This document shows, in pieces, positions 28,282 through 30,766 of a stretch of 34,009 bases of DNA; the first letter of the stretch is position 1; every line of letters starts with the position of its first letter. The notes below the pieces were generated by a model. It saw only the letters and a list, made by a program, of their open reading frames with translations. It made no database searches and was not told the origin of the DNA. Source of the stretch: Bacteroidota bacterium (GTDB lineage Bacteria > Bacteroidota > Rhodothermia > Rhodothermales > Bin80); NCBI GenBank assembly GCA_028875125.1, contig JAPPGC010000088.1, positions 1-34,009 of the forward strand, read 5' to 3'. Both the position numbers and the translations under genes were made by a program.

Positions 28282-28812
28282 CTACTCCCGTACCTCTACA
28301 ATCATTTCTATTTCCACTGCGATCCCAATTGGAAGGGAGTTCATTCCAACGGCTGCTCGGGCATGTTTTCCGATCTCGGGGCCGAATACTTCTACGAGCA
28401 AATCCGAACAGCCGTTAATTACGTTTGGCTGTTGGGTATAGTCTGGTGTCGCATTGACCATGCCATTCACCATGACAATACGCGTAACCCGACTCAAGTC
28501 ACCGATCTCCTGTTTCAGTGTAGCTAGGAGCGCAATCCCCGTTTGTCTGGCAGCTGCGTATCCTTCTTCAAGTGTAAGGTCTCTTCCCAGTTTCCCTGTG
28601 ATGTACGTGCCATCGGGCAGGAGGGGTCCATGTCCAGCGAGAAAGACAAGATTGCCGGTCTGCACTGCCCCCACATAGTTGGCCACAGGGTCAGGTGGGT
28701 CGGGCAGCTGAATCCCAAGTTCATCTAGGCGTTGTTCGGGGCTCAGTTCCTGGCCATGAACAGCAGCCGTGAAGAGAGCGAATAGAATAATGAGATATAG
28801 TCTGGTTCTCAT
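28282..28812 (-). CDS. Exported RidA-like (YjgF/UK114) protein
   Basis: A 176-residue protein of the RidA family. Classical members hydrolyse reactive enamine/imine intermediates made by PLP enzymes such as threonine dehydratase. The family core is GKHARAAVGMNSLPIGIAVE then IEMIVEV (about 147-174), with the Arg of HARAAVG at the usual ligand-binding position, and the N-terminal NLVFLAGHGPLLPDG. Unlike the common cytoplasmic RidA, it begins with a signal peptide (MRTRLYLIILFALFTAAVHG) and carries a 30-residue spacer, so it is probably periplasmic. Some Rid subfamilies lack deaminase activity. It ends seven bases from the convergent subtilase gene. Confidence 0.9.
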   Translation of the reverse strand: MRTRLYLIILFALFTAAVHGQELSPEQRLDELGIQLPDPPDPVANYVGAVQTGNLVFLAGHGPLLPDGTYITGKLGRDLTLEEGYAAARQTGIALLATLKQEIGDLSRVTRIVMVNGMVNATPDYTQQPNVINGCSDLLVEVFGPEIGKHARAAVGMNSLPIGIAVEIEMIVEVRE

Positions 28813-29023: not shown

Positions 29024-30700
29024 TTAGGTTTGATCGAGTACACTCTGGAAATTCTCGTCGGATATATTGCCGCCGCAAATGATCAATGCTAGCCGCTTTT
29101 TGGTCAAGTTTTTCTTGTATCCCAGAAAACAGGCAACTGCGACCCCCGCGGCTCCCTCAATTTTTATCCCGTGCTCGCGATAGACGCGGCGCATGGCGTT
29201 GGCAATCTCCTCTTCCGTAGCCATCAACCATTCGTCCACTAAATCCACGCAAAGCGGGAGGGTAATCGTATCAGATTCAATTTGGCCGGCTGTGCCATCG
29301 GAGAGAGTAGGTTGTGAATGTTGTTCAACGATGCGGCCGGCTTCTACAGATGCCTGCATTACGTTGGATCTTTCGGGTGAGCACCCGATAATCTTGATAG
29401 TGGGAAGGTGGGTTTTCAGTATAAGTGCCAAACCGCTGATCAGGCCGCCGCCTCCCACAGAAACAAAGACGTAATCCAAGGATCCTGCCTGGCGCAATAG
29501 TTCAACCCCGACGGTCCCCTGGCCTGCTATGATCTGCCAGTCGTTGTAGGGAGAGATAAACACGCGTCTTTCCTGCTCTGCTACACGTCGAGCCTCCCGT
29601 TCTGCGTCTATTCCGTCATCCCCACTAAAAACGAGGTCCGCAACGCCCTCGCTAAGCACTTCACGCTTATGCTCTTCTGTGGTGACGGGCAGATAGATCG
29701 TTCCCTTTGCGCCAAAATCCTTCAGAACACGGGATATCGCAAGGCCATGGTTACCGGTAGACGCCGCAGCTATGGGGCTAAGTGGTTCATTCAGCGACAA
29801 TAGTTTGTTCAGGGCTCCTCTGTATTTGAAGGATCCGGTATGCTGTTCATTTTCGAGTTTGAGGAAGACAATTGCACCGAATTCTTTTCCGAGTTCTTTC
29901 GATCGCAAAGCTTTGGTTTCAACCACTTCTCCTTTCAGCCTATTTGCCGCGTCCATTACGTATCGATAAGCCCGCCAGTGAGTGACGTGGTATTCAGCAG
30001 GTTTATCAGCACGTTTGGCCATATAGGCTCTCCTCACAGGTTGGTCAAAACGCTCAATGGCGTAGCGTAAAGCAGTGCGGGGGAGAACTACGGTCGGGTC
30101 ATCCAGGAATTCGGCAAGAACAGACTCATCGCGCTTACCAACCTCACGAAGCATCCAGCCGCAGGCCTTGTGAATCAAATCTTCCGGATCATGTGCCAAA
30201 ATATCTGAAAGCGCAAGTGTATCGTTGTATTGATCCCGTTTGATGAAATAGTATGTAGAGATAACTGCGATCCGGCGCTCCCACAGGTTGTCACTTCGGG
30301 CGAGGGTATATAATGGTGTTCGAGGGCGCTTGAAGAGATAGGGTCCCAGGATCTTGTGTGCGCTTGTATCAACCAGATCCCAATTGTTAACAAAGGAGGT
30401 GTGTTCCAGATATGCGTTGTACACCCTATACTGATTACCACGTTTGAAGGCGTGAACAAGAAGGCACAGGGCTACGAATCGGTCCTCGTGATAATCAGAT
30501 CGCAAGAGTACGAGCATTTCATCAAGCGAAACCTTCTTCCAGCTCTGGGCGATCCTCCGCAGTTCCGGCACACGAATTCCACGAAAGATATCTCCCTCAC
30601 CGTATTCTCCGGGGCCGGTTTTGAAGAAGCGTTGAGCATGTGCTGCCTTCACGGGATTCCCCATGCTCGCCAACAGTTCCTGAATATCCCTGGCAGTCAT
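29024..30700 (-). CDS. Fusion: AlkD-like DNA-alkylation-repair domain + threonine/serine dehydratase
   Basis: A single uninterrupted 558-codon ORF with two unrelated domains. Residues about 1-225 are an AlkD-type HEAT-repeat DNA glycosylase domain: IFRGIRVPELRRIAQSW, SFVNNWDLVDTSAHKILG (Trp107 and Asp111 fit the AlkD catalytic Trp-Asp positions), KACGWMLREVGKR (Trp182), ending LRYAIERFDQP. Residues about 240-558 form a PLP-dependent threonine/serine dehydratase: AANRLKGEVVETKALRSK, Lys292 in TGSFKYRGA (PLP Schiff base), STGNHG (314-319), SVGGGGLISG (414-423), and CGGNIS near the end. The linker is only about 15 residues. Both domains keep their catalytic residues. An internal Met at 227 could start a separate dehydratase. 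It is divergent from thrS with 66 bases between start codons. Confidence 0.9.
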   Translation of the reverse strand: MTARDIQELLASMGNPVKAAHAQRFFKTGPGEYGEGDIFRGIRVPELRRIAQSWKKVSLDEMLVLLRSDYHEDRFVALCLLVHAFKRGNQYRVYNAYLEHTSFVNNWDLVDTSAHKILGPYLFKRPRTPLYTLARSDNLWERRIAVISTYYFIKRDQYNDTLALSDILAHDPEDLIHKACGWMLREVGKRDESVLAEFLDDPTVVLPRTALRYAIERFDQPVRRAYMAKRADKPAEYHVTHWRAYRYVMDAANRLKGEVVETKALRSKELGKEFGAIVFLKLENEQHTGSFKYRGALNKLLSLNEPLSPIAAASTGNHGLAISRVLKDFGAKGTIYLPVTTEEHKREVLSEGVADLVFSGDDGIDAEREARRVAEQERRVFISPYNDWQIIAGQGTVGVELLRQAGSLDYVFVSVGGGGLISGLALILKTHLPTIKIIGCSPERSNVMQASVEAGRIVEQHSQPTLSDGTAGQIESDTITLPLCVDLVDEWLMATEEEIANAMRRVYREHGIKIEGAAGVAVACFLGYKKNLTKKRLALIICGGNISDENFQSVLDQT

Positions 30701-30766
30701 GGTAATGGAACACCTTGCACATAAACGCGTGCTCCTTTGCTGCCCAACAATAATTCTTGTTTAAGC

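Follow-up and report, generated by a model that had tools for sequence, protein, structure and literature searches.

The closest precedent for the gene analyzed here is the DPP III-AlkD fusion of Porphyromonas gingivalis, which likewise derives from adjacent genes: the fused form occurs only in Porphyromonas, and in Bacteroides and Prevotella the two parts are encoded by separate neighbouring genes (PMC5708649). In that single-genus fusion the partner is a peptidase, the AlkD part is C-terminal, and it displayed no repair activity in complementation (PMC5708649). For B. cereus AlkD the catalytic residues are Trp109, Asp113 and Trp187 (PMC8626424).

In the window, by which we mean the entire 34,009 nucleotide stretch of contig JAPPGC010000088.1 (assembly GCA_028875125.1), positions 29024-30700 are filled by a single ORF of 558 aa with an ATG start, which joins an AlkD-like glycosylase domain to a threonine/serine dehydratase. 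An earlier note on this DNA had recognized this one-ORF fusion and left its strand, minus, unstated. The parts of the gene and its downstream neighbour are as follows:

28282..28812, minus strand: gene for a RidA-like (YjgF) protein with a signal-peptide-like N-terminus, the conserved downstream neighbour (PF14588/PF01042)
29024..30700, minus strand: fused alkD-dehydratase gene, 558 aa, one ORF whose frame is equally open in 12 of the 16 genomes of the family
29033..29968, minus strand: predicted threonine/serine dehydratase domain, residues 245-556, PLP lysine K292 (PF00291; NF005292; TdcB fold)
29954..29977, minus strand: W242-x-A244-Y245-x-x-V-M249, where the first dehydratase helix begins, conserved in fusions only
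29981..30016, minus strand: linker, roughly residues 229-240, modelled as coil (pLDDT falls to 65 in the block 231-240, and 229-240 lacks helix)
30047..30685, minus strand: AlkD-type DNA_alkylation domain, residues 6-218, catalytic positions W107, D111 and W182 (PF08713; B. cereus AlkD alignment; 12 fusions)

This protein resembles the Porphyromonas DPP III-AlkD in that an AlkD-like HEAT domain is combined with a metabolic enzyme, and in that related genera encode the two as separate neighbours in the same gene order. It differs in that the AlkD domain is N-terminal, the partner is a PLP-dependent dehydratase, and the AlkD catalytic positions are kept. Our literature search found no paper on an AlkD-threonine/serine dehydratase pairing, which is apparently an undescribed, new combination of two known enzyme kinds. 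The two cases, this one and that of Porphyromonas, suggest repeated joining of AlkD-type genes to metabolic enzymes within the Bacteroidota/Rhodothermota group.

Each domain is full length, because coverage of its Pfam profile is essentially complete: PF08713 (DNA_alkylation) matches residues 6-218 over profile positions 1-213 of 213 (E 2.7e-59; 200.9 bits versus a cut-off of 21), and PF00291 (PALP) matches residues 259-543 over positions 5-295 of 295 (E 9.5e-64; 216 bits versus a cut-off of 35). This domain search bears out the earlier description of two complete domains, and the catalytic residues and motifs it had listed, namely W107, D111, K292, STGNHG (314-319) and SVGGGG (414-419), are all present. 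An alignment of the 12 fusions shows W107, D111, W182, K292 and the GGGG loop to be invariant. The first three of these align with Trp109, Asp113 and Trp187 of B. cereus AlkD; this unfused protein belongs to the same Pfam family and shares the catalytic Trp, Asp and Trp positions, but its similarity to the window protein is low (phmmer E ~3e-9), and glycosylase activity of the latter is a prediction. The fusion is the sole PF08713 protein of its genome, and neither Mpg nor Tag was found there. We nevertheless rejected the idea that the fused AlkD is the only alkylpurine glycosylase of the genome, which also encodes an AlkA-like HhH-GPD protein (weak model match).

The C-terminal domain is, as judged from its sequence, a nearly full-length fold-type-II dehydratase, with threonine and/or serine as putative substrate: it scores above the PF00291 cut-off and retains the PLP lysine K292 and the phosphate-binding glycine loop GGGG. 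The best NCBIfam dehydratase model, NF005292 (PRK06815 threonine/serine dehydratase), spans residues 245-556 over positions 5-318 of 320 and scores 345.8 bits against an equivalog cut-off of 371, so that the domain is close to PRK06815 and is not filed as a member. The IlvA threonine ammonia-lyase models score 172-227 bits against cut-offs of 379-577, and the IlvA-type C-terminal regulatory part is absent, the protein ending with the catalytic domain. Among the matches listed in a fold search, which were taken up by the dehydratase half and cover that half only, the predicted fold aligns with TdcB (Z 41.2, rmsd 2.1, 321 aligned); the best match in a viral structure library covers the PLP part only. 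The dehydratase half is 34% identical to the TdcB catabolic threonine deaminase (2gn0), is likewise a full-length fold-type-II PLP domain and, like both TdcB and PRK06815, lacks the C-terminal regulatory part, but it differs from them in sitting behind an AlkD domain and in scoring under the PRK06815 cut-off.

The fusion was recovered in 12 of the 16 family genomes (10 of 10 of the genus, and one genome each of two other genera), its gene being cut by a contig end in G001 (start) and G010 (end). A frame that stays free of stops in so many genomes is neither a chance occurrence nor a private sequencing error. The public records of the fusion come from several MAG projects with differing contig-naming styles. 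No fusion was found elsewhere in 245 genomes of the class, in 394 genomes sampled from the phylum, or among the best 80 loci of a seed-limited scan of 84,980 species; the distant AlkD loci examined among these 80 had no such dehydratase in their flanks. Within the limits of these searches the pairing, for which the earlier note knew no standard family, is confined to one Rhodothermales family of uncultured bacteria. The presence in independent relatives that it had named as favourable was obtained: three genera and 12 of 16 genomes of the family share the open frame. Nor is the join recent, a possibility that the note had raised, as the fusions of these genera have 56-93% protein identity. It had further held that separate genes in all close relatives would count against a real fusion: separate adjacent genes do exist, but only in the outer genera, where they represent the precursor state.

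Three relatives, G011, G015 and G013, have unfused alkD and dehydratase genes lying close together at the locus of the fusion, in the order thrS (divergent), then alkD-dehydratase-RidA-like-glpK, with S8 and glpK coming next on contigs that extend far enough; the G014 dehydratase lies ~6 kb from alkD. The alkD stop codon TGA of G013 is followed one base later by GTG, a possible dehydratase start. A tree of AlkD domains unites the 12 fused domains in one clade (support 99/96), and a tree of the dehydratases agrees weakly with a single origin (72/91). Given the unfused neighbours at this locus and the two trees, adjacency most likely came first and was followed by one fusion, which would most likely have occurred in the ancestor of the three genera. 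A fusion of single origin with its precursor visible in sister genera can be used to ask whether a joint function was gained or the two parts were merely frozen together.

The RidA-like gene occupies the same position in most loci of the family whose flanks are long enough, which fits the known clustering of RidA genes with threonine dehydratase genes (PMC4433059). Its product has an N-terminus resembling an export signal, so that cytoplasmic action on dehydratase intermediates, and hence a role as direct partner, is doubtful. The protein with this signal-peptide-like N-terminus is kept across the family; export would be unusual for a Rid protein. On the other side of the fused gene, the divergent thrS has a listed start codon only ~36 bases from that of the fusion (window 30700-30737), and the true thrS start may lie further inside the gene than listed. 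A promoter and terminator scan gave no signal above chance.

Purifying selection acts strongly on both domains (dN/dS about 0.04-0.17) and is relaxed on the linker: pairwise comparison of the four closest species (six pairs) gives dN/dS values of 0.04-0.08 for AlkD, which is the more constrained half in these species, 0.11-0.17 for the dehydratase, and 0.24-0.80 for residues 228-244, the last range resting on few substitutions. G003 and G005 are so close to each other that too few changes separate them for a judgement. The linker diverges in sequence among relatives, and its length varies only in multiples of three. At the domain joint W-x-A-Y-x-x-V/I-M has its W, A, Y and M invariant in the 12 fusions and was not seen in separate dehydratases; common descent or a new contact may account for it. 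AlphaFold (AF2) predictions for the window protein and the 56% identical G012 protein are high-confidence two-domain models (mean pLDDT ~92, pTM 0.91-0.92), both with a short coil from ~229 to 240. Such pTM values for two domains point to a fixed predicted arrangement, and together with the fusion-only motif they hint at this rather than at fully independent halves.

Based on these observations we propose, with a probability of about 0.65, that this is a genuine bifunctional fusion whose halves are largely independent, a neighbouring gene pair having been frozen into one chain. In one ancestor of the three genera the stop codon between adjacent alkD and downstream dehydratase genes was most likely lost, and the resulting frame has been kept. 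The N-terminal AlkD domain would remove alkylated purines from DNA, and the C-terminal domain, with PLP on K292, would convert threonine and/or serine to the 2-oxoacid and ammonia, the two activities running largely independently across the short variable linker. Any benefit might lie in 1:1 co-production, or possibly in a dehydratase dimer that brings AlkD domains together as a pair. Of the readings considered, independent bifunctionality needs the fewest assumptions.

It appears unlikely that the AlkD domain is now a non-catalytic HEAT-repeat scaffold that serves the dehydratase as a DNA tether or in oligomerisation. The P. gingivalis DPP III-AlkD fusion, a possible parallel, failed to rescue tag alkA E. 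coli from MMS (PMC5708649), and the AlkA-like glycosylase is also present in the genome; yet the three catalytic positions are invariant in 12 of 12 fusions, and the AlkD half is under tighter constraint than the dehydratase half. Slightly less probable is a functional coupling, in which dehydratase activity or amino-acid/PLP status alters the activity or placement of AlkD, or the reverse. The fixed two-domain arrangement predicted from pTM values of 0.91 and 0.92, the fusion-only motif and the retention of the fusion over three genera would be consistent with it, but there is no known pathway link and the linker is variable in both sequence and length. Its specific form, in which the joined deaminase controls the activity, placement or oligomeric state of the glycosylase such that amino-acid/PLP status feeds into base excision repair, is more improbable still; were coupling true, amino-acid deamination and DNA repair would be linked in a new way.

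We are even more doubtful that an internal start or linker cleavage yields free dehydratase, whether alongside the fused chain or as the main product. In the window GAGGAG stands seven bases ahead of an ATG at codon 228, but this codon is CTG or another in most relatives, and we rejected this internal Shine-Dalgarno and start as the start codon is not conserved; the ATG at codon 249 is found in 12 of 12 fusions but has no such purine-rich site before it. The main alternative in the earlier note, loss of a stop codon through faulty assembly or sequencing, has almost no probability left: all the genomes are MAGs, but the same fusion recurs in 12 genomes from separate bins and its diverged linkers stay in frame, which excludes it in practice. 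Neither half is obviously essential, given the AlkA-like glycosylase and a citramalate synthase in the genome.

This citramalate synthase (687.9 bits versus a cut-off of 450) and an IlvD-family protein imply that isoleucine can probably be made without a threonine dehydratase, by the citramalate route, and no full-length biosynthetic IlvA was found in the genome (evidence on G000 contigs C121 and C123; L146, L002). The fused dehydratase is therefore not needed as an isoleucine-pathway enzyme, a role we rejected, and is probably catabolic. The only other similar dehydratase found in the genome matches threo-3-hydroxyaspartate ammonia-lyase (460.8 versus 452).

Two rearrangements were observed at loci of relatives. 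In G003 and G005 (L035:1960-6050, and alike in L039) a segment with the starts of thrS and alkD is duplicated on either side of a ~3.6 kb insert, which holds ORFs that we name aldehyde-dehydrogenase-like and PLP-decarboxylase-like from reading the sequence; the outer alkD copy is degenerate. In G012 (L112:11922-13133) a second, nearly identical dehydratase copy with only about the last 35 AlkD residues follows the full fusion ~2 kb downstream, with an insert in between, and is either a partial duplication or an assembly effect.
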